64,000 bases of DNA from Bacteroidota bacterium (GTDB lineage Bacteria; Bacteroidota; Bacteroidia; Sphingobacteriales; Sphingobacteriaceae), in the NCBI GenBank assembly GCA_013288685.1, contig JABDBM010000004.1, positions 1 through 64,000 on the forward strand. Direction: 5' to 3'. A program made the position numbers and the translations under genes. The notes under the pieces were generated by a model. The model made no database searches and was not told where the DNA came from. It worked only from the letters and a program-made list of their open reading frames with translations. This document shows positions 1 through 15,545 of the stretch, piece after piece; position 1 is the first letter of the stretch, and each line of letters begins with the position of its first letter.

Positions 1-364
1 CGTAAGGGCCCTTGTTGGCTAACTGGCTTAGTTGAGTAAACGAACACAACTCGTTGCTAATCATTTCGTGTAGTCCTGCAGTTTTCACTTTCTGCACTAA
101 TTGTTGCTGCATCCCAGCCGAAATATCGCTGGCATGTACTTTAAAGCCCTTTTGTGCAAAAAAAATAGCGTCTTCGCCGGTACCGCTGTTCAACTCTAAA
201 ATGGAACTTCCGGGCGATATGTATTGCAAAACATGCGAACGCACCCTGTCGCGTTTGTAATTAACTATCGTATTGCCCGAATACAGTTCGTCAAAAACAC
301 CCGACTGGCTGCTGAACGCCGCTTCGGCCAAAGCTTCGTTAATATTTGCCGAAACGGGCTCCAT
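1..364 (-). CDS. class I SAM-dependent methyltransferase, partial (C-terminus beyond window)
   Basis: My minus-strand translation from ATG at 364: MEPVSANINEALAEAAFSSQSGVFDELYSGNTIVNYKRDRVRSHVLQYISPGSSILELNSGTGEDAIFFAQKG..., with a motif I-like ILELNSGTGEDA; TAATG overlap with the upstream stop. Not in the ORF track because truncated. Confidence 0.8.
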   Translation of the reverse strand, partial: MEPVSANINEALAEAAFSSQSGVFDELYSGNTIVNYKRDRVRSHVLQYISPGSSILELNSGTGEDAIFFAQKGFKVHASDISAGMQQQLVQKVKTAGLHEMISNELCSFTQLSQLANKGPY

Positions 365-1827
365 TATAGCGTTCCCTCCAGCCTTCGTAATTTTAATCCT
401 TCAACAAATGTAGCCGGCGCATGATAAAAAACCGATAAGGCCTTGCGCAGGCTTTTTGTATTAAGGTGCAAAGGGTCTTTAATCAATTTAACCATGCTAT
501 TTTTAGCCAGATGCTTATGGTAATTTTGATGCACGTATTTATGCAATTGTTTGTAGTACGATGGCGGGAAGGTATTATGAAACATCAGCGCCATTTCGTC
601 GGAATCGGTCCAGTTGGTTTTCTTTTTCAGATCGGCCTTTACTTTTTCGTAAAATAAAGTTCCGGGCAGCGGGTACGATACCGAAATACCTATTTCAAAA
701 GGAAGCAACTCGTTAATCATATCAATGGTTAATTTGATATCATCCTTTTGTTCGCCCGGATACCCGAACTGTATAAAAAATGAAGGTTTTATCCCGGATG
801 CTTTCATCAAACTGGTAGCCGTGCGGATTTGGTCAACAGTAATCCCCTTGTCCATAGCATCCAATACCTGTTGCGACCCGCTCTCCGCCCCTATCCAAAC
901 ATTTTCACAACCTGATGCTGCAAGGGCTTTCACAGTATCTTCATGTGCCAGCAAATCGGCCCGCGACTGTATCTTGAACCTAATTTTTATTTGCTCTTCA
1001 GTCAAAAGATTGGCAAATTCCTGTACCCAGCCGGGTTTCAAGCCAAAAATATCATCGCAAAACCAGATATGATCCATCTGATAGTTTGCTTTCAATAGTT
1101 TAATTTCATCAACAACATTTTGGGGGCTGCGCGAATTATAGCGGTTACCGTAAATGGGTTTGGCACACCAGTTACATTTAAACGGGCAGCCACGGGTTGT
1201 GCCCATATTTAACGAGAAATACCCGGCATGATTTAACCAGGTTTGCCGGTATTGTTCCATGTTCACCAAATCCCAGGCGGGCAGTGGTAAACCATCCAAA
1301 TCTTTTTGCACCGGCCTACTGCCTGTTTTAATTATTTCGCCGTTTTTAATATAAGCTAATCCGTTTATTATTGAATAATCGTTGGGGCCTTTATTTATGT
1401 AGTTGGTTAACTCCAGCAAGGTATGCTCCGCCTCGCCTATTATCACAAAATCAGCGCCTTCCTGTAAATACTCTTTATACCGATCTGTCGAGTCGGAACT
1501 CGAAACAATGACTGTACAACCAGCTTCTTTCGCCGTTTTACACATGCTGAAAGCGGCCTCGCGCATATTGGTAAGGCACATTTTGGTGATATAGTTGAAG
1601 CCGTCATCATAAATCACAAAAAAATTAGGCGCGTTTTTTTTAATTGACGGGATAACTTCTTCGGGGCCGTGCACAAACATGGTATCAAATAATTCTACGC
1701 TGTAGTTATTAGCCCGCAATAACGCGGCCGCGTACAAGGTCCCCAATGGCGGATAAGGCTGCCCCGACTGCCATTGCTTTGGGTCGAAACGTAAAAAGTA
1801 AGAATGGGTGAATAATATACGGTCCAT
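364..1827 (-). CDS. B12-binding-type radical SAM protein
   Basis: 487 aa; TTRGCPFKCNWCAKPIYG (CxxxCxxC cluster motif) after an N-terminal B12-binding-like domain. Confidence 0.9.
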   Translation of the reverse strand: MDRILFTHSYFLRFDPKQWQSGQPYPPLGTLYAAALLRANNYSVELFDTMFVHGPEEVIPSIKKNAPNFFVIYDDGFNYITKMCLTNMREAAFSMCKTAKEAGCTVIVSSSDSTDRYKEYLQEGADFVIIGEAEHTLLELTNYINKGPNDYSIINGLAYIKNGEIIKTGSRPVQKDLDGLPLPAWDLVNMEQYRQTWLNHAGYFSLNMGTTRGCPFKCNWCAKPIYGNRYNSRSPQNVVDEIKLLKANYQMDHIWFCDDIFGLKPGWVQEFANLLTEEQIKIRFKIQSRADLLAHEDTVKALAASGCENVWIGAESGSQQVLDAMDKGITVDQIRTATSLMKASGIKPSFFIQFGYPGEQKDDIKLTIDMINELLPFEIGISVSYPLPGTLFYEKVKADLKKKTNWTDSDEMALMFHNTFPPSYYKQLHKYVHQNYHKHLAKNSMVKLIKDPLHLNTKSLRKALSVFYHAPATFVEGLKLRRLEGTL

Positions 1828-1839
1828 GTCTTTTTTAAA

Positions 1840-2883
1840 TTAAGCCAGCTTTGCAAACGGCGATAGATTTAACGAACATACACATTTAACACAGGTAGTG
1901 TTAGTGCTCATATTTAACGTTTTCCTGAATTTGGTTGCTTTATCACTATTTAATATAGATTCGAGTGGCGAATCGCGGATATTACCAATCGCATCATGAA
2001 AAAAACAAGGCCTCACCTCGCCATCAGCTTCAATAACGGTTGACACCCATGGCGCATTGCATTTTTTAAAAGGGAACGCGGCCAGTTCATAAAATGCCGC
2101 GTAATACTGGTATATCTGCTGAATCTTTTCGGGCGACTCGGCCATAAATCCCGAAATAAAATTGGCCTGGTTATCAATAATTATCCGGGTAATTACCTCC
2201 TGCAATTCGGGCAATTCATGCTCCGATAGTAATATTTCGTGTTGTTTGGGTTCTTCCCAGGCCATTTGCCGGTTAAAGGCGTGGCTGCTTACGTCGGCCG
2301 GTAAAAAGCTCACCTGGTTTATTCCCATTAACTTTGCCTCGCGAATGATAGACTCCCAATTTCTGAAATTTAGCCGGTGAATCACTGTTCTTGCCGTGAC
2401 CCGGTAATCAGGGTTAAGCAATTTGAGGTATTGCACCCCCTCTTTTAACTTGCCAAACGCACCGGCTATATTACGGATGGCATCGTGCAGCGGCTCGTCG
2501 CCATCTAACGAAACAATAACGTCATTTACATATTGCAGTAATTGCTGGGCATGCCTTTTTATAGTTAAGCCGGTGGTTAGCAGGGTTACTTTAATTCCCT
2601 GTTTTTGCAGTATTTGACACAAACCGAAAAAATTGGCGTTCAACAAAGCCTCTCCGCCCGACATCAGAACTTGTTGCGTTCCAAATTTTTTTAGCGAGCC
2701 TAATAGACCACTGATATCATCTTCGGTAAGTTGCTTCAGGTTTTTGTTATCCTTCCAAATATCGCACATTACGCAGCGGCAATTGCAGGCGCTGTGCGGC
2801 ATCAGTATTACAATGGGCAATGCCGTTATGGTATGCGTTTTTAAGGTGCGGTAACGCTTATATGTATTGTATAGGGTGTCCAT
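1840..2883 (-). CDS. radical SAM protein with SPASM-like C-terminus
   Basis: ORF 1840..2919; the ATG at 2883 (MDTLYNTYKRYR) overlaps the upstream stop as TAATG and is the likelier start. CNCRCVMCDIW and C-terminal Cys cluster (CNAPW...RPCFF...CVKCVCS). Confidence 0.88.
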   Translation of the reverse strand: MDTLYNTYKRYRTLKTHTITALPIVILMPHSACNCRCVMCDIWKDNKNLKQLTEDDISGLLGSLKKFGTQQVLMSGGEALLNANFFGLCQILQKQGIKVTLLTTGLTIKRHAQQLLQYVNDVIVSLDGDEPLHDAIRNIAGAFGKLKEGVQYLKLLNPDYRVTARTVIHRLNFRNWESIIREAKLMGINQVSFLPADVSSHAFNRQMAWEEPKQHEILLSEHELPELQEVITRIIIDNQANFISGFMAESPEKIQQIYQYYAAFYELAAFPFKKCNAPWVSTVIEADGEVRPCFFHDAIGNIRDSPLESILNSDKATKFRKTLNMSTNTTCVKCVCSLNLSPFAKLA

Positions 2884-4382
2884 TAAAATCCCTGTATTTC
2901 GGGTTGCCGGTATTTCCAAACCTTTTGCAGCAATTTTATTTCGTACGGATATTTATAAATATTTGATTTATACCGCAATCCCGCAACCAGTTGTAGTGCC
3001 TTTCTTTTCAACAGATTAAGCCGAATATCGGTAACAGTGGGATAAACGCCGTTCAGCACGGTTTCAAAATCCCTTATTTTATCAATCATTTCGGGCGTTA
3101 ACCATGGTGTAAGCGGATTCTTCCGCAAATCAAAATTTTCCCAGGCAGGGCTTATCCAGTCTTCCAATGTTTTGGGGTATTTGAAGCCGGCCGCTTCCAC
3201 CTGTTTAAACAACGTTGAACCTTCAGTCGGCACCGGGCTGTAAGTATACAGTACAATTTCGGTGCGCGGATTCACTGCTTTGATCTTTTTTATAAAATCA
3301 ATTTCAAAATCTATCTGGGCGTCAACTTGTTCAGGGGTTGGTGCAGGGGTGCCCAACACAAACGAATATTCAGGAATAATATTAAATTTCTTCAACCTTT
3401 CGGCAAAACGGATAATTTGGTCGCCGGTTTGGGTACCCCCTTTATCCAATTGTTCCAAAATCAGGTTATTGCCACTTTCGGCTCCAAAGAAAATGATGCG
3501 GCACCCGGCCTCGCTAATTAACGCTAATGAAGCATCACTAAATTTATCCATGGTATCAATACGCGCCATCCCCCACCAACTCATTTTTTCGGGTTTTATC
3601 AGTCTTGCAAACTCCACAGTCCGCTTTTCGGATACAAAAAAGTTATTGTCATGAAATTCAATGGCATCGGCGCCCCATTTGTCCTTTATATATTTAATGT
3701 CATTATAAACATTTTGGGCCGATTTTGCCTTCCAGCGTGCCTCAAATATCGGCACTACTGCACAAAATGAACAAGTAAACGGACAACCAATACTTGAATG
3801 ATAGGCAAGCGTATGCTCGCCCAAATAGGTTTTGCCAAGGTATTTTTTGATATTATAAATACGGTTCAGCTTATCATAAGGCAGCGGCGGCAATGGGTCC
3901 TGCTCAAAAAGATCTTCCTTAGCCGTCTTAACAATCTTATCGCCGGCTTTGTATATAACGTTTCTGATGAACTCATATGGCGTGTTCTTTTCCAACGCAT
4001 CAATCAAATCAGGAAAGGCATGATCGCCGGGACCGTTAATCACAAAATCAACATAACCCGAATTGAGCACCGCATTAGGTTGCGTGGAAGGGAAATAGCC
4101 CCCCCATACCATAATGGTATGAGGGAACTTTTCTTTTATCGTTTTTGCAAAAGGTATGGATTGCTTTAGTTGTGGCCCAGGCATTACAGTAAAACCCAGG
4201 TATTTGTATTCACCTGTATTTAATAAAGTCTCTATTGTCTCTAACGGGAATTCATCACGGTTTCCATCAACAATGGTCCACTCGTATTTTCCTTCAATAG
4301 AGGCTGCGATACTTAAAATAGAATTTGGGATACGATATTTGCCGTTGGCGCTTTTAGGATTGAATAGTATGATCTTATTCAT
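2883..4382 (-). CDS. B12-binding-type radical SAM protein
   Basis: 499 aa; SSIGCPFTCSFCAVVPIFEARWKAKS motif; VWGGYFPSTQP in B12-binding-like domain. Confidence 0.9.
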   Translation of the reverse strand: MNKIILFNPKSANGKYRIPNSILSIAASIEGKYEWTIVDGNRDEFPLETIETLLNTGEYKYLGFTVMPGPQLKQSIPFAKTIKEKFPHTIMVWGGYFPSTQPNAVLNSGYVDFVINGPGDHAFPDLIDALEKNTPYEFIRNVIYKAGDKIVKTAKEDLFEQDPLPPLPYDKLNRIYNIKKYLGKTYLGEHTLAYHSSIGCPFTCSFCAVVPIFEARWKAKSAQNVYNDIKYIKDKWGADAIEFHDNNFFVSEKRTVEFARLIKPEKMSWWGMARIDTMDKFSDASLALISEAGCRIIFFGAESGNNLILEQLDKGGTQTGDQIIRFAERLKKFNIIPEYSFVLGTPAPTPEQVDAQIDFEIDFIKKIKAVNPRTEIVLYTYSPVPTEGSTLFKQVEAAGFKYPKTLEDWISPAWENFDLRKNPLTPWLTPEMIDKIRDFETVLNGVYPTVTDIRLNLLKRKALQLVAGLRYKSNIYKYPYEIKLLQKVWKYRQPEIQGF

Positions 4383-4413
4383 TTTTATATTTTGCAGGTA
4401 GTGCTTATTTTAG

Positions 4414-4472
4414 GTCCCCGCTATACCGGTGGCTGTCAGTCCACCGGTATATTCACCCATCATCACGGGGAC
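4414..4472. repeat. two-stem inverted repeat in divergent radical SAM promoter region
   Basis: Outer GTCCCCG / CGGGGAC (4414-4420, 4466-4472), inner ATACCGGTGG / CCACCGGTAT (4423-4432, 4441-4450). Confidence 0.85.
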
Positions 4473-4676
4473 ACAATTAACAATAAACCCAATTAAACCG
4501 AAATCAAACAATTAACTTGTAATAACTACGATGTGATAAAAACGATGGTTGCCTGTGAAGATAAATAAAATGAAATAAATACGAATATTCAATTTGTAGC
4601 CCCGTCGTGGCAACCCTTATCGTTTAAATTCCGTATTTGCAATAAATCGCTTTTTCATTTAAATCCATCAATCACA

Positions 4677-5417
4677 TTGATAGCTAATTTAAAAAAATAT
4701 ATTAAAAACCAACTATTCTCGCCGCTGGTAAAAGAAAAAGAAGTAGTGGAAGCTTATGATATTTGGGCCGAAAACTATGACGCGCAACCCGGAAACCTGA
4801 TGCTCGATTTGGACGAGCTGTTGTTTTCGGAATTACTGGCAACCATAGATGTGAAAAATAAGCTGGTGGCCGATATCGGCTGCGGCACAGGGCGCCATTG
4901 GGGGAAAATTTTTAAAGATAACCCGGCAGGCTTAACAGGCTTTGATGTTTCGCCGGGGATGCTGCGCAAACTGCAGGAAAAATTTCCGGATGCCAAAACG
5001 CATACTATAATTGATAATTCATTTTCAACGGTGGCCGATGGTACTTTTGACGTTATTCTGTCGACCCTAACGGTTGCCCATATTGAAAATATTGAGCAAG
5101 CGCTTGACGCATGGTGCCGGATATTAAAGGATAAAGGAGATATCATCATTACCGATTTCCATCCCGATGTGCTTGCTTTTGGCGGAAAAAGGACGTTTAG
5201 GCATCACGATACACAAATAGCCGTCAAAAATTTTGTTCATTCTATCAATACCATTAGCAACATATTGATAAAACATGGTTTTGAGCTGGTTTGCCAGCAG
5301 GAAGAGAAGATTGACGAACAAGTAAGGCATTACTATACAGCGCAAAACGCGGAACATGTATACCAAAAATTTAAAGGTTTTAACGTAATTTACGGCATCC
5401 ATTTCAGGAGGCCGTAA
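4677..5417 (+). CDS. class I SAM-dependent methyltransferase
   Basis: 246 aa; VADIGCGTGRHWGKIF motif I; TTG start as given. Confidence 0.88.
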   Translation: MIANLKKYIKNQLFSPLVKEKEVVEAYDIWAENYDAQPGNLMLDLDELLFSELLATIDVKNKLVADIGCGTGRHWGKIFKDNPAGLTGFDVSPGMLRKLQEKFPDAKTHTIIDNSFSTVADGTFDVILSTLTVAHIENIEQALDAWCRILKDKGDIIITDFHPDVLAFGGKRTFRHHDTQIAVKNFVHSINTISNILIKHGFELVCQQEEKIDEQVRHYYTAQNAEHVYQKFKGFNVIYGIHFRRP

Positions 5418-6572
5418 ATGATCTTTAATAATATTAAAATAATTGGTAGCGAAGGGCCGGTAAATATCAGGGTAAGCGATGGGAAAATAGCCGAAATTTC
5501 ATCATTAAAAATTCAGGACAACCGCTTTGCGGCACAGCAGCTGAACTTTGATAATGCACTGATTTTTCCGGGGTTAATTAACTCGCACGATCATTTAGAC
5601 TTTAATCTTTACCCCCAATTAGGCAACAAAATATTTAGCAGCTATACCGAATGGGGCGAACATTTGCACGAACAATATACAAATGAAATAGTTGATATAC
5701 TAAAAATACCAACATCATTAAGGGCGCAATGGGGAGTATATAAAAACCTGCTTTGTGGCGTTACCACGGTGATAAATCATGGCGAATTATTGGATTTGAA
5801 AGATGAGCTGATTACTGTTTTTGAAGACACACATGTGATTCATTCAGTACAATTTGAGAAAAACTGGAAAAAGAAATTGAATAATCCGCTAAAACGAAAG
5901 CAAACAGTAACTATTCATGTCGGCGAAGGTACCGACCGACCCGCCCGGCAGGAAATTGACAGGTTAATAAGGTGGAACTTATTTCGCCGGAAGCTGGTAG
6001 GTATACACGGTGTGGCTATGACCGAAAGGCAAGCTAAAAGTTTTGAGGCGATTGTTTGGTGTCCGCAGTCCAATTTCTTTTTGTTAAACCAAACGGCGCA
6101 AATAGATGTATTAAAAAAGCACAGCCCAATTTTATTTGGCACCGACTCCACCCTTACCGGCTCGTGGAATATTTGGGACCATTTGTACCAGGCCAGGAAA
6201 ACAGGGCTGCTTAGCGACAGAATGCTGTATCATAGCCTTAACCAAAACCCGGCAAAAACCTGGAAACTAAACAGCGGCGAAATTGCAGTTGGTAAAGATG
6301 CCGATTTAGTAGTTGCTGCAACAAAAAAGGATAAAGCGGGGTTGGAATCGTTTTTTGCGATAGATGCTGAAGACCTGTTGCTGGTAATGCATAAAGGACA
6401 GGTGCGCCTGTTTGACGAAAGCTTGCTAACCAATTTACGCCAGTTGGACCCTGATGACTTCAGCAAATATTATATACACGGCGTTTGCAAATTTGTAAAG
6501 GGCGACTTACCCGGTCTGATGCAGCAAATAAGAGAACACAACCCGGCGATTGACTTCCCAATAAGCATTTGA
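5418..6572 (+). CDS. amidohydrolase family protein (metal-dependent hydrolase/deaminase type)
   Basis: 384 aa; NSHDHLDF HxH, HVGEGTD, GIHGVAMT, LFGTDSTLTG; starts immediately after previous stop. Confidence 0.85.
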   Translation: MIFNNIKIIGSEGPVNIRVSDGKIAEISSLKIQDNRFAAQQLNFDNALIFPGLINSHDHLDFNLYPQLGNKIFSSYTEWGEHLHEQYTNEIVDILKIPTSLRAQWGVYKNLLCGVTTVINHGELLDLKDELITVFEDTHVIHSVQFEKNWKKKLNNPLKRKQTVTIHVGEGTDRPARQEIDRLIRWNLFRRKLVGIHGVAMTERQAKSFEAIVWCPQSNFFLLNQTAQIDVLKKHSPILFGTDSTLTGSWNIWDHLYQARKTGLLSDRMLYHSLNQNPAKTWKLNSGEIAVGKDADLVVAATKKDKAGLESFFAIDAEDLLLVMHKGQVRLFDESLLTNLRQLDPDDFSKYYIHGVCKFVKGDLPGLMQQIREHNPAIDFPISI

Positions 6573-6573
6573 A

Positions 6574-7488
6574 ATGAATTTGATTAAAAGGACTTTTTTT
6601 AAGAACACCAAAATACAGACCTTTTTTATAACGCGTTTACCGGCAGCGGCGATAGAAGAAAAGGTATTTTTAAAAAGTGGAAAGCACAACTTTGACGTAA
6701 CGCGTCATCACGCTATGATTTGTCTTGACCCGTTTTGTATAGCTGCCTGGTTAGCTAAAGATGAGGCCAGCATTTTTGACTCAGCTACAGCGGCTTTGCG
6801 TTTTTTGAAGGGTAGAAATTTAAATGCAAGCATAAAAGTTTCTTTGATCGAAAAAATTAATACCGAAACGGGAGTTTTGCTGCTGTACAAAGTTGAAAAA
6901 GCTAAAAATTATCAATTAACCGTATTACACCGGCTGGCGCTTTTTGCTTACTTCCTTAGGGCTAAAACCAACACCTTTTATAGCCGGAAGGTTATCAGTG
7001 CCTTGTACTCGTATCCGCGCAGCATTATTATAGTATCCTACCGCGATGAGGAGTATTACAATATTTTCCCGATGGATATTCAAGGCTATATTGAAGAGGA
7101 GGGCCTTTATATACTGGGGTTACGAACAACCAATGTTACCCTAAATAAAATCCTCGACGCAAAAAAAGTGGTGGTCTGTGATTCGGATACGGTTGATATT
7201 AACACGGTTTATAACCTGGGTAAGCATCCCAGCACATCGCCAACAAAAATAGCCGACATGCCGTTTGGCGTAACCGAAAGCGAGCAATTCGGCTTTTTTG
7301 TTCCAGACTTTACCGGTTCATATAAAGAAATTGAGATCATCCAAAATAAAAAAATGGGATACCACATGCTGATGATCGGTAAAGTAGTAAATTCAAAAAA
7401 ATTGAAAGAAAAATCCGAATCGCTTTATCATGTTGGTTTCTTACAATTTCAAAAAAGCAACTATAAAAGTATTGACGGATTATTTTAA
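6574..7488 (+). CDS. flavin-reductase-like split-barrel protein (tentative)
   Basis: 304 aa; SYPRSIIIVSYRDEEYYNIFPMDIQG...LGLRTTN...GYHMLMIGKVV resembles flavin-reductase-like domains by eye. Confidence 0.5.
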   Translation: MNLIKRTFFKNTKIQTFFITRLPAAAIEEKVFLKSGKHNFDVTRHHAMICLDPFCIAAWLAKDEASIFDSATAALRFLKGRNLNASIKVSLIEKINTETGVLLLYKVEKAKNYQLTVLHRLALFAYFLRAKTNTFYSRKVISALYSYPRSIIIVSYRDEEYYNIFPMDIQGYIEEEGLYILGLRTTNVTLNKILDAKKVVVCDSDTVDINTVYNLGKHPSTSPTKIADMPFGVTESEQFGFFVPDFTGSYKEIEIIQNKKMGYHMLMIGKVVNSKKLKEKSESLYHVGFLQFQKSNYKSIDGLF

Positions 7489-7506
7489 CTGACAGGAGCT
7501 TTATTT

Positions 7507-8604
7507 ATGAATTACGTGTTTGTCAGCTATCATTACTCAGCAAATTTTCACACGCCCCAAGCATGGGTAAAACGAATTGAGATCTATGGCGGGATAATGG
7601 AAGCATTAGCTAAAGAAAATACTGTTCATTACCTTAAACAAATTGACTACCAGGGCGACTACCTCCATAACGGCGTTTGCTACCATTTTGTAAACTTTAA
7701 CCCGAAAGAAAAATATTTCCCCCGGAAGATGAACCGCTTTATCAAAAGCTTCCATCCGGATATCGTAGTGGTTGGCGGCTTGCACTTGCCTTTACAGGTA
7801 ATACAATTACGGCTTAACCTGGATAGACATACGCGCATCATTGCCCACCACCACGCCGAAAAGCCTTTTCCCGGACTTAAAAAGCACATCCAGCGTTTAG
7901 CTGATAAATATATTGATGCGTATTTATTCGCTTCGCGCCACATGGGTATGGATTGGGTTGCAAAGGGTAATCTGGCATCCCCGGAAAAAATACACGAGGT
8001 GATGGAAGTATCTTCTACATTTTATCTGATAGAAAAATCAATCGCCAAACGAAAAACCGGTATTACCGGCGATCCTGCTTTTTTATGGGTGGGCAGGCTT
8101 AATGATAATAAGGACCCTATAAATGTAGTGAGGGCCTTTTTAAAATTTGCAAAAAATAACGCGACAGCCCGGCTGTATATGATTTATCATACCGATGAAT
8201 TGCTACCGCAGATAAACTTATTACTTGGTAGCAGCAGTAATAAAAGTGCAGTGATATTGATTGGAGAGGTGCCACACGATGATTTATTGTATTGGTACAA
8301 CAGTGTTAATTTTATCATTTCCGGCTCGCATTATGAAGGCAGCGGCACCGCAATCTGTGAAGCCATGTCGTGCGGCTGCATACCGGTTGTGACTGATATA
8401 TTTTCGTTCAGGATGATAACCGACAATGGGAAATGTGGGATATTATACGAAGCCGGCAATGAGGATGCCTTATTATCGGCGTTGAATAGTATCGAAAACC
8501 AAGATTTAACAGCGCTTAAAAACCGGTCGCTGGAATATTTTAACACAAATCTTTCCTTCAAAGCTATAGCAGCGCAGATTCAGGAGGTTGCCGGTTCGTT
8601 ATAG
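7507..8604 (+). CDS. glycosyltransferase family 4-like
   Basis: 365 aa; VGRLNDNKDPINVVRAF..., YEGSGTAICEAMSCGCIPVVTD (GT1/GT4 C-domain). Confidence 0.88.
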   Translation: MNYVFVSYHYSANFHTPQAWVKRIEIYGGIMEALAKENTVHYLKQIDYQGDYLHNGVCYHFVNFNPKEKYFPRKMNRFIKSFHPDIVVVGGLHLPLQVIQLRLNLDRHTRIIAHHHAEKPFPGLKKHIQRLADKYIDAYLFASRHMGMDWVAKGNLASPEKIHEVMEVSSTFYLIEKSIAKRKTGITGDPAFLWVGRLNDNKDPINVVRAFLKFAKNNATARLYMIYHTDELLPQINLLLGSSSNKSAVILIGEVPHDDLLYWYNSVNFIISGSHYEGSGTAICEAMSCGCIPVVTDIFSFRMITDNGKCGILYEAGNEDALLSALNSIENQDLTALKNRSLEYFNTNLSFKAIAAQIQEVAGSL

Positions 8605-8684
8605 TTCTGAAATCAGGGCCTATTCGTGGCACACTTATCGCATCATAATATTCATATCCCGAAATTATATTTACTTATAGGATT

Positions 8685-9782
8685 ATGAATTTTGTTTTTG
8701 TTAATTACGACTATTCACCCCATATCAGTTCCCCACGCGAGTGGGTAAGCCGGATAAAAGCCCATACAGGCTCGTTGGAGTGCCTCGGGAAAGAAAATAC
8801 CGTAGTCCGTGTTGAGCAAATTAACTATTCGGGTGATGTATCTCATAACGGCGTGCGGTACTTTTTTGCAGATTATGGCAAAAACAACACCACGTTTCCG
8901 TGGAAATTAAACCGCTTTATTGAGGATTTAAATGCCGATATAGTGATTGTGCAAGGCCTGCAATATCCCCTTCAGGTAATGCAATTGCGTTTAAGGTTAA
9001 ATAAAAAAACAAAAATTATAGTACAGCACTATGCCGAATCGCCGGCAAGTGGTATCAAGAAGTATTTCCAGCGGATGGCCGACAAGCACATTGATGCTTA
9101 TTTATTTGGGTCGCGCGCAACCGGTATCAACTGGGTTAACCAGGGAAACCTTTCAACAACCGATAAGATATACGAGGTAATGGAAGTATCCTCCACGTTT
9201 TATCCCGTTGAAAAAACGCTGGCCCGCAAAACAACCGGCGTAATTGGCCATCAGGTTTTTTTGTGGGTAGGTACCCTTACCCAGCATAAAGACCCTATAA
9301 CTGTTGTGAAGGCATTTTTGAAGTTTGCTGCTTTGGAACCATGGGCCAGATTGTACATGATTTACCGGAACGATGCTTTGCTGCCCCGTATTAAAGAGCT
9401 TTTGGATGCAGCGGAAATAAAAAATGTGGTGACTTTAGTTGGCGAAGTATTAGACGACGAATTACTTTACTGGTATAACAGCGCCGATTTTATCATCTCC
9501 GGGTCGCGGTATGACGAAAGCGGAGTGGTTGTTTGCGAGGCGATGTCATGCGGTTGTATCCCGATAGTAACCGATATTCCAGCCTTTAGCAGGTTAACTG
9601 ACGAGGGCAAATGCGGCCTCTCCTACCTTGCAGGGAATGATGCGGCTTTATTTTCGACCCTAATGCGAACTATGGGGTTGAACATACAAGAAAAACAACA
9701 AAAATCATTGGACTATTTTAGCTCCAAACTTTCATTTGAAGCCATAGCCCGCCAGATACACGAGGTTGCAGTTTCGCTATAG
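8685..9782 (+). CDS. glycosyltransferase family 4-like, tandem paralogue of the preceding gene
   Basis: 365 aa, same length and collinear with 7507..8604; YDESGVVVCEAMSCGCIPIVTD. Confidence 0.88.
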   Translation: MNFVFVNYDYSPHISSPREWVSRIKAHTGSLECLGKENTVVRVEQINYSGDVSHNGVRYFFADYGKNNTTFPWKLNRFIEDLNADIVIVQGLQYPLQVMQLRLRLNKKTKIIVQHYAESPASGIKKYFQRMADKHIDAYLFGSRATGINWVNQGNLSTTDKIYEVMEVSSTFYPVEKTLARKTTGVIGHQVFLWVGTLTQHKDPITVVKAFLKFAALEPWARLYMIYRNDALLPRIKELLDAAEIKNVVTLVGEVLDDELLYWYNSADFIISGSRYDESGVVVCEAMSCGCIPIVTDIPAFSRLTDEGKCGLSYLAGNDAALFSTLMRTMGLNIQEKQQKSLDYFSSKLSFEAIARQIHEVAVSL

Positions 9783-9792
9783 CGAACGAAGT

Positions 9793-9884
9793 AAGACAAC
9801 AAGAGTCAAGATTATGAATTATAAACTCCTGGCTCTTGTTTCTTGATGTCTTGTTTCTTTTTTCTTGCTTTTATGTCTCTTGCC
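9793..9884. repeat. CTTGTTT/TTCTTGA word array between convergent genes
   Basis: AAGACAACAAGAGTCAAGATT on left and CTCTTGTTTCTTGATGTCTTGTTTC on right. Confidence 0.75.
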
Positions 9885-9885
9885 A

Positions 9886-10947
9886 TTAACATGCAAACAA
9901 GCTGATCACATTTTTTGCAATTTGCTGGGCGGGGCACATCAATACCGGGTCATGGCCGCGTTTGGTGTCTTTTAGTACAGTTAAAATTTCGGCACTCATT
10001 TCCTCTTTATTTTTCACCACATGATGATGCCTGAAGTTTTTAGTCATAGGTTTACAAAACGACACTACATGCGCCCCTGCATATAAGGCCTCTGATAATA
10101 CCGCGCCAAATCCTTCGTAATTTGATGGGTGCAAAAATATTTTCGTCCGCTGCATCAGTGCCAGCACCTCCTGATGGGGAAGTTCTCCTGCAAACGTTAG
10201 GTTATTTTCCAATTTATAGTTGGCGACCCTAATTTTCAGATGTTCCAATTCAGGCCCTTTTCCGCAGATTACCGCTTTTATATCAGGCAAAAAATTCTTT
10301 ACAAAAAACAAAGCATCTATAAAAACATCATATTGCTTCAATGGAATCAGCGAACCCGCGCCCAAAATATCGATATCCCTTTTTAATGGCGCCTCTCCAA
10401 ATAAGCCGGTATCAATGCCCACCGGCACAACATGCAGCGGTGCGATGCCATAATTCTTTTTAATTTCCTTCGCCAAAAAATCCGAAAGGGCAATTAACGA
10501 ATCGCCACGGGGTTTTATCCATCTAAAATACTTATTACCACTTTTGGCATCCTGCCCCAGCAACCAACTATAATGACATAGATTATTTAACCGACCGAAA
10601 TAATTACCAATAAAGGCGCATTCGCCAAACCAAAAACTTAGTAAGCCCAGCAATTGGTTTTCCTTATTTAGCTTTCGTAAAATAAACCATGCTTTTACCC
10701 ATGTAAACAGCCTGAATAACCTCCCGCGTTCCTTCCCGCCAATAGCAATAACTTTTACTCCGTACCAATCATATTCAGCAGCAAAAAACGGGTACTGAAA
10801 CGTCAAAACGATAACGTTAAGACCAGGACACACCTCTTTAAGCGCCTTCACAAATATTTGCTGCGGAGGCATGCAAGCCGTGTCGGCCTCGTTTGCAGGG
10901 AAGCCGGGACTAAGAATAACCAACGTTTCGGGCTTATTCTCCATCAA
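9886..10947 (-). CDS. glycosyltransferase family 4-like
   Basis: 353 aa; LGAGSLIPLKQYDVFIDAL, HPSNYEGFGAVLSEALYAGAHVV. Confidence 0.88.
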   Translation of the reverse strand: MMENKPETLVILSPGFPANEADTACMPPQQIFVKALKEVCPGLNVIVLTFQYPFFAAEYDWYGVKVIAIGGKERGRLFRLFTWVKAWFILRKLNKENQLLGLLSFWFGECAFIGNYFGRLNNLCHYSWLLGQDAKSGNKYFRWIKPRGDSLIALSDFLAKEIKKNYGIAPLHVVPVGIDTGLFGEAPLKRDIDILGAGSLIPLKQYDVFIDALFFVKNFLPDIKAVICGKGPELEHLKIRVANYKLENNLTFAGELPHQEVLALMQRTKIFLHPSNYEGFGAVLSEALYAGAHVVSFCKPMTKNFRHHHVVKNKEEMSAEILTVLKDTKRGHDPVLMCPAQQIAKNVISLFAC

Positions 10948-12598
10948 GCGCTATTATTTTATTGCAAAAACTTAAACTTTGTTTATTATGGGTAATAAAT
11001 AATATCATTTTGCCCAGGGAAGCAAGCGTTTGCAGCTGTTTAAGTATACTTTGCTCGGCCTGGTCATCCATTTCGCTAAAGGGCTCATCCAAAATCAACA
11101 AGTCGAAATCATGATATAGCGCACGCGCCAGCATGATCCTTTGCCTCTGGCCGCCACTTATATTTTTACCGTTTTCTCTTATTATCTTTTCCAAACCTTC
11201 GGGATATTTATCCAAAAACTCATCAATTCCACAAATAGCCATCACCTCCTCAATTTTCTCCCTGTTATAATCATCATCACTCAACGTTATGTTTTTCAGA
11301 ATAGAGTCGTGTATAAAAAAAGGCTGTTGCTTAACATACGATATTTTACTCAGGTACGATTGCCGTTCTATAGCGGATATTTTTTTATCATCAAAACAGA
11401 TAGTACCGCTGTCCGATTCCAAAAAACCAAGTAAAAGATTGATGATAGTTGTTTTCCCTTTGCCTGAATTCCCCGAGATTCCGGCAAAATCACCTGGCGA
11501 TAACTGAAAACTAAGCCCGTTTAAAATTCGATGATCTTTATAACGAAAATCAACTTGGTGGAAACTAACGGAGGTTATAGTGGCTTTGGCCGGTTTAGTA
11601 ATCGAGTGAGTTTTATTAGCCTCCATGAGGTCACTTACAGTAAACTGGTAAGTCTTCATCTGCCCGGTGCTGTTTAGTATTTTTACTATACCCGGAATAA
11701 TTTTATACGACGCAGCCATGAAAACACCAATGGTTAACAAATCTATAGCTGGTCCGTTTGCCGACCATTTGTTAATAGCCACCAATATAAAAAAGCCCAA
11801 AATAGCAAAGACTTCTATCAGCCGCGAAGGCAGGCTTTGCAAAGTTTGCTGTGCAGCAATATTCTCATTTAACTGTTGCTGATAGTTGTGATAACGGTTG
11901 GCAAAAAAATCGTTTCGTTCGTAAATATTGCTCTCTACGTAACCGGCCAGCGACTCCTGTAAGTGCTGGATAGTTTTTTCGTTCGCTCTTTTAGTATGGA
12001 TTCGTACTTCCTTCAATTTTTTACGGATAAACCAACCCAACAGCACAACAGGTGGTAATAGTAAAAGCAATAACAGCAGGAAAAGCGTAGGATGATAAAA
12101 AAGGATAGCACACGTGGTAAAAAATATCAGGATAATTTGCGAAACGACCTGCTGAAAATTGGTGAGGATATAGTGGCAAAATTCAATGGGCTGCTGGCTA
12201 ATCCTCCTGATCTGCACAGCCGAATCAATACTTACAAACCGGGTGTACTCATCGTTTAAATAACGTAGGATATTCCTTTTCGATAACCTTGAAGCCACTC
12301 CGTAAAAAAAATGGTGCTGTGATTTTAAACCCATAAAACCAAACCAGTTTTTGACGCTAAACAGAAGCAGGAACACCCCGATAAGCATTAACGAGTTTTG
12401 GTTTAAGAAAGCAACAGGGACGAATGAAATTTTTGGCGGCACCGTATTTTTTGTATAAAAATTTATCACAACCAATAGCACTCCTAAAAAAGCAATATCC
12501 AATATGCCTATAAGCAAATCGAAAACGATAAGCTTATACAGCTTTACCTTTTCGGCTCTATTCAAAATGTTTAAAATACCCGGTATAATTTGCTTCAA
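10934..12598 (-). CDS. ABC exporter, fused permease/ATP-binding protein
   Basis: 554 aa; TM N-terminus, Walker A GNSGKGKTT, signature ISGGQRQR, Walker B LLILDEP. Confidence 0.92.
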   Translation of the reverse strand: MKQIIPGILNILNRAEKVKLYKLIVFDLLIGILDIAFLGVLLVVINFYTKNTVPPKISFVPVAFLNQNSLMLIGVFLLLFSVKNWFGFMGLKSQHHFFYGVASRLSKRNILRYLNDEYTRFVSIDSAVQIRRISQQPIEFCHYILTNFQQVVSQIILIFFTTCAILFYHPTLFLLLLLLLLPPVVLLGWFIRKKLKEVRIHTKRANEKTIQHLQESLAGYVESNIYERNDFFANRYHNYQQQLNENIAAQQTLQSLPSRLIEVFAILGFFILVAINKWSANGPAIDLLTIGVFMAASYKIIPGIVKILNSTGQMKTYQFTVSDLMEANKTHSITKPAKATITSVSFHQVDFRYKDHRILNGLSFQLSPGDFAGISGNSGKGKTTIINLLLGFLESDSGTICFDDKKISAIERQSYLSKISYVKQQPFFIHDSILKNITLSDDDYNREKIEEVMAICGIDEFLDKYPEGLEKIIRENGKNISGGQRQRIMLARALYHDFDLLILDEPFSEMDDQAEQSILKQLQTLASLGKMILFITHNKQSLSFCNKIIALDGE

Positions 12599-12895: not shown

Positions 12896-14188
12896 CTAAA
12901 AATATATCGAAAACTCCGTCTGCTTTTCCGCAACCGTTTTCAACGAAAACTCAAATCCGTGGTTTACCAATATTTCGCGTACCAGGGTTAAGCCTATCCC
13001 CTGGCCATCTTTTTTGGTACTAAAAAACGGAGAAAAGAGATTAGCGGCTAATTCGGCGCTAATGCCGGCGCCGGTATCTGTTATAATAAGGGTTTTATTG
13101 GTAGTTGTAAACCGGATGTGGCCCTGCGCCCCTATCGCCTCAATGGCATTCTTAACAATATTAATCAATACCTGCTCCAATTGCTGCTCATCGGCCATGA
13201 CAATTAATTGTTCCCCAACCAGGTTAAATTCAAATTCAATTTCATTTTCTTGCGCCCTGATGCTCATTAGTTTCGACACTGAATCGATCAATTGATGCAG
13301 GTTAACCGGGCGTTTATTGGCGGCGGGCAATTTTACCAGATCGGCAAAATTGCGCATAAAAAGGTTCAGATTTTGGTTACGATCAACAGCAACCTGCAGG
13401 GCGTCTTTTAAATCATTAAACCTATGACTTTCCCAAAGATTGTCGTTTTTTAATGCCGATTGCATAATGGAATTTACAGGCCCCACCGTATTGTTAACCT
13501 CGTGCGCCATCATGCGGATCACCTTGCCATACACATTTTTTTCGGCCGCCACTATTTCGGCAGTTAAATCTTCTATCATGATAAAATGACGGGAAAAACC
13601 CCTGTCGATAAAATGCGATTTTTGCAACAGGAAGGTGTTTACACCGTCAACTTTAACGGTGGCAGTTTGGCCCGATTGTAATCGTTTGATATAGTCAAAA
13701 AGCGGATGCGGATGCTTATCAACAGGATAACCGATCAGCTCATTGGCTTCCATTCCTAAAATCTGTAAAGCCCTGGGATTTATTTGCTGAATATGATCGT
13801 CAAAATCCAATATCACAATGCCGGTTGGCGATGTAAATATCAGCTTCTCCAAAAAAAAATGTTGTTGTTCCCGCCGTGTGCGTTCAATACGTAACTCGTC
13901 CATCATTTGGTTGTACACATCAATCAAGTGGTCCATTTCGTGCTTGCCGGTGGATACGAATTTGACGTTAAAATCCCTGTCCTTAATGGCTTCCACACCC
14001 TGCATCAACGTTTTTAACGGTTGTAACAGTTGAACATACAATTGCCAGGCAATAACAATGGAGATGATAACAAATACCTCCGAAACAATAAAAAAGATAT
14101 TATTAACCCGGAAGATGTAATAGCTAAGCACCAGGGTAACCAGATGTACTATTACTACAAATAAAACATACTTAGTCCTCAGCTTCAT
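12896..14188 (-). CDS. sensor histidine kinase (HAMP-PAS-HisKA-HATPase, NtrY-like)
   Basis: 430 aa; MAHEVNNTVGPV H-box, NIVKNAIEA N-box, DTGAGI, GQGIGLTLVREI; overlaps response regulator gene. Confidence 0.92.
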   Translation of the reverse strand: MKLRTKYVLFVVIVHLVTLVLSYYIFRVNNIFFIVSEVFVIISIVIAWQLYVQLLQPLKTLMQGVEAIKDRDFNVKFVSTGKHEMDHLIDVYNQMMDELRIERTRREQQHFFLEKLIFTSPTGIVILDFDDHIQQINPRALQILGMEANELIGYPVDKHPHPLFDYIKRLQSGQTATVKVDGVNTFLLQKSHFIDRGFSRHFIMIEDLTAEIVAAEKNVYGKVIRMMAHEVNNTVGPVNSIMQSALKNDNLWESHRFNDLKDALQVAVDRNQNLNLFMRNFADLVKLPAANKRPVNLHQLIDSVSKLMSIRAQENEIEFEFNLVGEQLIVMADEQQLEQVLINIVKNAIEAIGAQGHIRFTTTNKTLIITDTGAGISAELAANLFSPFFSTKKDGQGIGLTLVREILVNHGFEFSLKTVAEKQTEFSIYF

Positions 14189-15545
14189 CGTAAGGAATTT
14201 GGTATTTATCCAGTCTGCGGTATAAAGCGCTGCGGGTTAGTCCCAGCGAAGCCGACGCCTTTGATATTTTGTTTTTATGGTATTCCATCGCCCGCTTTAT
14301 CATTTCTACTTCTACCTCCTCCAAAGTTAAAGTGCCAATGCCCGGCAATTGCATATTTCCCTTTTTAACAGGCGATAGTTCGAGTTGTGATCGAAAATCG
14401 TCTATATCCAACTCATCCCTTTTGCTCACCAATATAGTGCGTTCCACCAGGTTTTTTAACTGGCGGATATTACCTGGCAGCGGCAATTGTTGCAGCCATT
14501 TCATGGCGCTATTGGTTACCGATAAGGCCGGACGATTATATATTTCCTTTAAGTTACTGATAAAAAAATTTACCAGCAGCGGGATATCCTTTGGTCTATC
14601 GCGTAAAGCAGGCAAATAAACAGTAATCAAGTTGATGCGGTATAGCAAGTCCTCCCTAAAAGTAGTCCTGCTTACCATTTCGTTCAGGTTTTTGTTGGTG
14701 GCGCAAACTATCCTCACGTCAACCGATTTAGAGCGGCTATTCCCAAGCACTTCGTAGGTTCTGTCCTGCAACACACGTAATAACTTTACCTGGCTGCCGG
14801 CATCCAAATCGCCAATTTCATCCAGAAAGATAGTACCTTTATTAGCCATTTCAAACCGGCCAATCCTATCGAACCGTGCATCGGTAAAAGCCCCGCGCAC
14901 ATGCCCAAACATTTCACTCTCAAACAACGAGGTCGAAATCCCGCCAAGGTTTACCTTAATAAATGGCTTATTTCGCCGAAGGCTGTTTTGGTGGATAGCT
15001 TCCGCGATGAGCTCCTTACCCGTGCCACTTTCGCCCATTACCAATATAGAAGCATCGGTACCGGCTACGCGACCGATGGTTTCTAAAATATTCAGCATCT
15101 GCGGGTCCTCGCCAATAATGTGCTGAAAATTATAAGCTTTATCTAACTGCTTGCGGGTATGGTGTTCTGTTTTTTTCTCCTGTAAATCCAGTAGTGTTTT
15201 CACCGATTGCAGTAAATGATCGTTACTCCAGGGTTTGTTTATAAAGTCATTTGCTCCGGCTTTCATCCCGCGCACGGCCAGTTCAATACTTGCCCAACCG
15301 GTAATTAATATCACCGGTATGGCAGCATTTATTTTTTTGATATTATCCAAAAGCTCCATACCTTCTTTTCCAGAAGTATCGTTGGAGAAATTAAGATCGA
15401 GTATAATGAGTTCGGGACTATTTTTTTTGATGCTCTTCAGCGCCTCGGCCGGGCCACTGCATGCAGAAACTTCATAACCCTCGTCTTTTAACAACAAGAG
15501 TAATGAAGTTCGTACCGCAATATCATCGTCGATGATTAGTATCAT
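14172..15545 (-). CDS. sigma-54-dependent response regulator (REC-AAA+-Fis HTH)
   Basis: 457 aa; REC domain, GESGTGKELIAEAIH Walker A, GAFTDA loop, FLDEIGDL Walker B, C-terminal Fis-like HTH. Confidence 0.95.
   Translation of the reverse strand: MILIIDDDIAVRTSLLLLLKDEGYEVSACSGPAEALKSIKKNSPELIILDLNFSNDTSGKEGMELLDNIKKINAAIPVILITGWASIELAVRGMKAGANDFINKPWSNDHLLQSVKTLLDLQEKKTEHHTRKQLDKAYNFQHIIGEDPQMLNILETIGRVAGTDASILVMGESGTGKELIAEAIHQNSLRRNKPFIKVNLGGISTSLFESEMFGHVRGAFTDARFDRIGRFEMANKGTIFLDEIGDLDAGSQVKLLRVLQDRTYEVLGNSRSKSVDVRIVCATNKNLNEMVSRTTFREDLLYRINLITVYLPALRDRPKDIPLLVNFFISNLKEIYNRPALSVTNSAMKWLQQLPLPGNIRQLKNLVERTILVSKRDELDIDDFRSQLELSPVKKGNMQLPGIGTLTLEEVEVEMIKRAMEYHKNKISKASASLGLTRSALYRRLDKYQIPYDEAED

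Follow-up and report, generated by a model that had tools for sequence, protein, structure and literature searches.

Among the described systems closest to the locus analysed here are those for Wzx/Wzy-dependent surface polysaccharides: its relatives likewise carry a flippase, a Wzy_C protein, many glycosyltransferases (GTs) and, in some cases, a Bac_transf priming transferase. What sets the island apart from these systems is the presence of two cobalamin radical SAM enzymes, together with a SPASM enzyme, several methyltransferases and a predicted deaminase. Our search of the literature found no described locus of such make-up; the one paper on radical SAM enzymes of Mucilaginibacter concerns another cluster, which includes peptides as well as a lantibiotic dehydratase.

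Described relatives can also be named for the individual enzymes. AprD4, from apramycin biosynthesis, has an aminoglycoside intermediate as its substrate. HpnJ, BchE and the ladderane enzyme belong to a small group of cobalamin radical SAM enzymes whose chemistry is ring formation or rearrangement instead of methylation; very few such non-methylating enzymes exist, and the part that cobalamin plays in them is an open question (PMC13142503).

Gene content of the island

The window, that is, the whole stretch of 64,000 nucleotides that was analysed, starts at the left end of contig JABDBM010000004.1, which begins at base 1 and belongs to a draft assembly (5.07 Mb, 223 contigs, 71% complete). The island spans positions 2-12598 of the window (Table 1). 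A preceding sequence-only reading had described two B12 radical SAM proteins packed together with a SPASM radical SAM protein next to a methyltransferase, and further a second methyltransferase, an amidohydrolase, three GT4 enzymes and an ABC exporter; all these genes are present where they had been placed, and Pfam searches bore out the families. At the start of the contig, MT1 is truncated, with 121 of its about 272 aa remaining, and the window lacks the left part of the locus. The nucleotidyltransferase K0, which belongs to this missing flank, was not found elsewhere in the same 71% complete genome.

The TAATG junctions reported earlier are real at two places, between the B12a stop and MT1 and between the B12b stop and SPASM. 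The SPASM ORF opens at TTG 2919, and the ATG at 2883 overlaps the stop codon of B12b; MT2 and AH abut. None of the island members tested reached a curated NCBIfam cut-off, in agreement with the previous description of an island that has no named pathway; for the ABC exporter, the top family was MsbA (219 bits, under the cut-off of 602). Also in agreement with that description, no NRPS or PKS is present, and the radical chemistry, glycosylation and export predicted from the protein families were supported. Neither a cobalamin riboswitch nor any other RNA element was found with Rfam in the window and six related loci.

The protein previously called flavin-reductase-like (FR) produced no Pfam or NCBIfam match, but the call is upheld by its AlphaFold model (pLDDT 86.7), which matched split-barrel flavin reductases in Foldseek (best E 1.7e-9, TM 0.79 by target, about 150 residues).

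Two further observations concern the right half of the island. The tandem pair of GT4a and GT4b (window 7507-9782) is represented by one gene only in most relatives. The exporter is adjoined by a histidine kinase and an NtrC-type regulator, which are kept at this position only in a few near relatives.

Table 1. Features of the island and its surroundings in the window, and selected genes of related loci (prefix L)
Feature	Position	Strand	Basis
MT1, SAM methyltransferase, truncated by contig start	2..364	-	Methyltransf_25 just under cut-off (Pfam)
B12a, cobalamin-binding radical SAM enzyme	364..1827	-	Radical_SAM 78.5 bits (over cut-off); B12-binding just under
SPASM-type radical SAM enzyme	1840..2883	-	Radical_SAM and SPASM, both over cut-off
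B12b, second cobalamin-binding radical SAM enzyme	2883..4382	-	Radical_SAM and B12-binding, both over cut-off
MT2, SAM methyltransferase	4677..5417	+	Methyltransf_11, 59 bits
AH, amidohydrolase, nucleobase/nucleoside deaminase type	5418..6572	+	Amidohydro_1; metal site; fold
FR, two-domain protein, C-terminal flavin-reductase split barrel	6574..7488	+	AlphaFold model and Foldseek
GT4a, family 4 glycosyltransferase	7507..8604	+	Glycos_transf_1, 72.7 bits
GT4b, tandem duplicate of GT4a	8685..9782	+	55% identical to GT4a over 365 aa
GT4c, family 4 glycosyltransferase	9886..10947	-	Glycos_transf_1, 85.5 bits
ABC exporter, MsbA/PglK-like half-transporter	10934..12598	-	ABC_tran and ABC_membrane, both over cut-off
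Histidine kinase and NtrC-type regulator	12896-15545
CDA-fold deaminase	L228:11123-11701
CDA-fold deaminase	L230:8238-8789
CDA-fold deaminase	L233:8118-8840
CDA-fold deaminase	L205:11756-12313
Nucleoside salvage operon	L204:14885-18092		Pfam
Nucleoside salvage operon	L205:5934-9110
B12b, last 85 aa only (G588)	L227:18525-18782

Recurrence of the island across Bacteroidota

Relatives of AH were detected in 30 of the 301 genomes of the same family, and relatives of B12b in 28. We mapped 30 such loci, as well as 80 taken from a public genome collection, and the gene order is the same in them. The hosts in which the island order recurs are mainly Mucilaginibacter, joined by Pedobacter, Dyadobacter, Flavihumibacter and Chitinophagaceae. 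Full flanks around AH were available for 61 loci, some of them from the same strains as among the 30 loci. In this set, MT1 and B12a are present in 60 loci each, MT2 and B12b in 59 each, GT4c and SPASM in 55 each, ABC in 54 and K0 in 50. The FR gene, found in 23, is optional in the island. MT2 lies directly 5' of AH in 59 of the 61 loci, MT1 adjoins B12a in 58, and GT4c is located beside ABC in 51. Full-length relatives of MT1, from 29 loci, are 58-74% identical. Because dozens of genomes repeat these genes in one and the same order, the association is more than chance, and the co-occurrence in other genomes that had been proposed as a check is indeed observed.

For the phylum as a whole, we surveyed an even sample of 396 Bacteroidota genomes from 171 genera. 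B12a is present in 27 of these genomes (21 genera) and B12b in 18 genomes (14 of the 171 genera), although one of these genomes, G550, has only a distant relative; all 18 genomes with B12b also have B12a. Two recurring kernels were delineated. The first consists of K0 (NTP_transf_2, with a GS...DxD-like site in 74 of 74 sequences), B12a and MT1, and the second of B12b plus either MT2-AH or a different methyltransferase, of the MTS family. In L204, the genes K0, B12a, MT1, B12b, MT2, AH, K2 and SPASM form a compact co-directional run with no glycosyltransferases. A search of plasmids yielded a single distant match, 26% identical, from Calothrix. Four loci (L226, L235, L236 and L083) contain, near B12a, a second, diverged B12a paralogue with an MT1-type methyltransferase. 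In L227, the ORF covers only the C-terminal end of B12b, which may be broken there.

Mean pairwise identity within the genus is 82% for B12b, the most conserved island protein, 71% for B12a and 69% for SPASM, compared with 49% for GT4a, 51% for GT4c, 53% for ABC and 46% for Wzy_C; the exception among the glycan genes is the glycosyltransferase K3, at 71%. Because the radical enzymes are better conserved than most of the glycan genes, we infer from these sequences that one conserved set of chemical reactions may operate in varying glycans, with a single core chemistry and sugars that differ.

Glycan genes in the related loci

The left part that the window lacks comprises, in complete relatives, a GT2, a GT4, a Wzx-type Polysacc_synt protein, a 546-aa protein resembling a membrane polymerase, another GT2, GT4s, a Wzy_C protein and K0. 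Flippase, polymerase/ligase-like protein and GTs occur together in Mucilaginibacter relatives; the locus in the window is truncated at the contig end. Other variants of the locus contain a polysaccharide deacetylase, a GNAT protein and a DUF1972 GT; GT87 and GT9; or Bac_transf priming transferases, which among the annotated loci were confirmed only in L192 and L193. No sugar-nucleotide pathway genes and no Wza/Wzc were recognised in the annotated parts of the loci.

Given that the larger locus of the relatives holds Wzx, Wzy/ligase-like proteins, many GTs and sometimes a priming transferase, a surface glycan or glycolipid is a likelier product than a small molecule that is glycosylated and secreted. 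In some relatives, K0-B12a(-MT1) occurs without any glycosyltransferase nearby, so the core may serve a non-glycan purpose. The sequence-only reading had named, as an outcome that would speak against it, the presence of orthologues in a characterised LPS/exopolysaccharide or hopanoid pathway; the locus did prove to be a glycan locus, but an uncharacterised one, and the evidence for squalene-hopene cyclase was not convincing.

The two cobalamin radical SAM enzymes

The CxxxCxxC iron-sulfur motif is present in all 125 relatives of B12a and all 113 relatives of B12b. The N-terminal B12-binding domain (PF02310) scores 37.8 bits in B12b, over the cut-off, and 29.1 bits in B12a (E 9.6e-7), just under the cut-off of 32.1; both proteins are predicted cobalamin-dependent radical SAM enzymes. 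The top NCBIfam families are HpnJ (150 bits) and BchE (141), followed by the ladderane enzyme, for B12a, and HpnJ (116 bits) and BchE (101) for B12b. The family matches of the distant B12a of L204 rank in the same order (HpnJ, BchE, ladderane enzyme).

The likeness to HpnJ and BchE thus consists of the cobalamin-binding and radical SAM domains and of the ranking of these curated families as best-scoring for both enzymes. The differences are substantial: the scores are about one quarter of the cut-offs or less (577.6 bits for HpnJ, TIGR03471, missed by both proteins), there is no convincing hopanoid cyclase, and the setting of the island is a glycan locus. Accordingly, with scores this far below the cut-offs, the sequences lean towards the ring-forming HpnJ/BchE rather than the known methylases, which falls short of an assignment. 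Of the earlier suggestion of C-methylation or radical chemistry, the latter part stands, and plain C-methylation is weakened because HpnJ and BchE are the best family matches of both enzymes. Among solved structures, the B12b profile matched AprD4 alone (6fd2, E 1.5e-9), over the radical SAM core only; in contrast to the setting of AprD4, no aminoglycoside genes were recognised in the island loci.

The deaminase-like proteins

In an alignment of 17 AH sequences, with identity down to 30%, the metal/catalytic site HxH, H, HxGE/HxAE, H, D is invariant except for the third residue of HxGE/HxAE. The AlphaFold model of AH (pLDDT 91.1) gave its best Foldseek match (E 2.7e-14) to TM0936, and the top matches were mostly MTA/SAH, adenosine, guanine, cytosine and aminofutalosine deaminases, together with triazine hydrolases. 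By predicted metal site and modelled fold, AH is an ATZ/TRZ-type amidohydrolase. It shares the HxH, H, HxxE, H, D site and the fold with the TM0936-type MTA/SAH deaminase and the ATZ/TRZ relatives, but is only about 12-18% identical to them, with fold-search TM-scores of about 0.5-0.7, and differs from them in being located, in the genomes checked, always at B12a-bearing clusters. AH is present in 10 of the 27 B12a genomes, each time at the cluster; in a sample of 128 genomes, it was found in five only, all five of which also have B12a.

Four genomes without AH, picked up by the position of the gene, encode, beside the cluster genes, a CDA-fold protein that has the HAE and PCxxC motifs and, apparently, a membrane anchor at its N terminus; this gene adjoins MT1 or, in L205, SPASM. 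About half of the B12a genomes have neither deaminase near the cluster. Because two different deaminase folds occur at the locus, the gene content points to deamination, either as a step of the pathway or in the clearing of 5'-deoxyadenosine and S-adenosylhomocysteine (SAH).

The membrane-anchored CDA-fold family is apparently almost specific to island-type loci. The search of the phylum recovered one more full-length relative, a remote one (G443) that is unlinked to island-type genes and in which the Glu of HAE is lost, and the CDA deaminase was therefore ruled out as a marker of the locus. The apparent mutual exclusion of AH and the CDA-fold protein (overlap in 0 of 4 genomes, with a chance of about 0.14 by simple arithmetic) is not significant.

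In L204 and L205, which represent two families, the SPASM/B12 radical SAM genes have as their immediate neighbour a nucleoside salvage operon of cytidine deaminase, thymidine kinase, nucleoside transporter and purine nucleoside phosphorylase (checked with Pfam in L204).

Alternative explanations

The island might instead produce a glycosylated secreted natural product, such as an antibiotic or a signal, that is exported by the ABC protein, the glycan genes being suppliers of sugars or mere neighbours. The patchy spread of B12a (27 of 396 genomes), the compact L204 operon without glycosyltransferases and the fact that the sole relative of B12b with a solved structure, AprD4, belongs to apramycin biosynthesis are all compatible with such a product. 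We nevertheless consider it unlikely, given the Wzx, Wzy/ligase-like and priming-transferase genes of the relatives, the order kept across most of the 61 full loci and the failure to recognise a resistance gene in the loci. A modified membrane lipid, for example, a glycosylated hopanoid or terpenoid made with B12a acting like HpnJ, seems improbable. HpnJ is the top family match of both B12 enzymes, and the substrates of HpnJ and the ladderane enzyme are lipids (PMC13142503), but the HpnJ scores of 116-150 bits compare with a cut-off of 578, and no recognised lipid-synthesis gene is present in the loci. Squalene-hopene cyclase was represented by weak, partial matches to the C-terminal domain only, in 5 of the 27 carrier genomes, the best of them scoring 48.5 bits in a frame of 398 aa, and in the absence of a convincing cyclase the hopanoid variant is disfavoured. 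SPASM and B12 radical SAM enzymes are frequently encountered in RiPP pathways, in which they would modify a ribosomal peptide; for this island we regard such a pathway as highly improbable. No small ORF is conserved across the loci, intergenic tblastn produced two weak matches (E 0.002 and 0.005) in one locus, and neither a peptidase nor a recognition protein was found. The RiPP reading is accordingly disfavoured for want of a conserved precursor, and of the glycosylated small molecule or peptide proposed by the sequence-only reading, the peptide falls away and the small molecule is less likely than a surface glycan or glycolipid.

A different kind of alternative, which fits either a surface glycan or a secreted product, concerns the deaminases only: AH and the CDA-type protein would not catalyse a pathway step but clear the 5'-deoxyadenosine and SAH released by the radical SAM enzymes and methyltransferases. 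This is conceivable, if on the whole rather less probable than not. The closest solved relative of AH, by sequence and by fold, is the MTA/SAH deaminase TM0936, and one AH matches the 5'-deoxyadenosine deaminase family, below the cut-off. However, the segment linking the first two metal-ligand strands is presumably shorter in AH than in TM0936; moreover, over half of the B12a genomes lack AH, and the CDA-type protein that replaces it is apparently membrane-anchored, which would be odd for an enzyme acting on a soluble by-product. On the other side, a purine nucleoside phosphorylase operon is located directly downstream in L204 and L205, and radical SAM enzymes are inhibited by 5'-deoxyadenosine (PMC8102628).

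Proposed pathway and implications

With about even confidence, we interpret the island as a tailoring module within a Wzx/Wzy-type surface-glycan (or lipid-linked glycolipid) locus. The product is best read as a modified residue that is conserved and forms part of a lipid-linked surface glycan. In this scheme, K0, which is lost with the missing part of the contig, would start an unusual building block together with B12a and MT1, B12a most likely catalysing ring formation or rearrangement and not simple methylation. B12b, MT2 and AH would act next, contributing another cobalamin radical reaction, a methyl transfer and the hydrolytic deamination of a cyclic amidine. In many strains, SPASM and the extra methyltransferase K2 could perform further steps, after which GT4 and other glycosyltransferases would extend the unit. 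Its passage across the membrane in lipid-linked form would fall to ABC or Wzx, and its polymerisation or attachment to the Wzy/ligase-like proteins.

A bolder version, which we put forward as speculative and somewhat doubtful, is a phylum-wide undescribed pathway to a new class of lipid-linked building blocks, with two successive non-methylating cobalamin radical SAM enzymes, deamination by either of two unrelated deaminase folds and decoration with sugars that vary between Bacteroidota.

The kinds of enzymes involved are known, and it is apparently their combination that is undescribed. The gene set is real, widely conserved and undescribed in Bacteroidota, and it appears to make a chemically unusual building block, with the use of two vitamin-B12-dependent radical enzymes, for a sugar polymer or a glycolipid of the surface. 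The presence of a conserved B12 pair in culturable Mucilaginibacter, among them M. lappiensis, M. gossypii and M. oryzae, beside a predicted deaminase in a glycan locus, offers both new enzymes and a defined genetic test, and suggests that the surface glycans of some Bacteroidota contain a residue not yet described.
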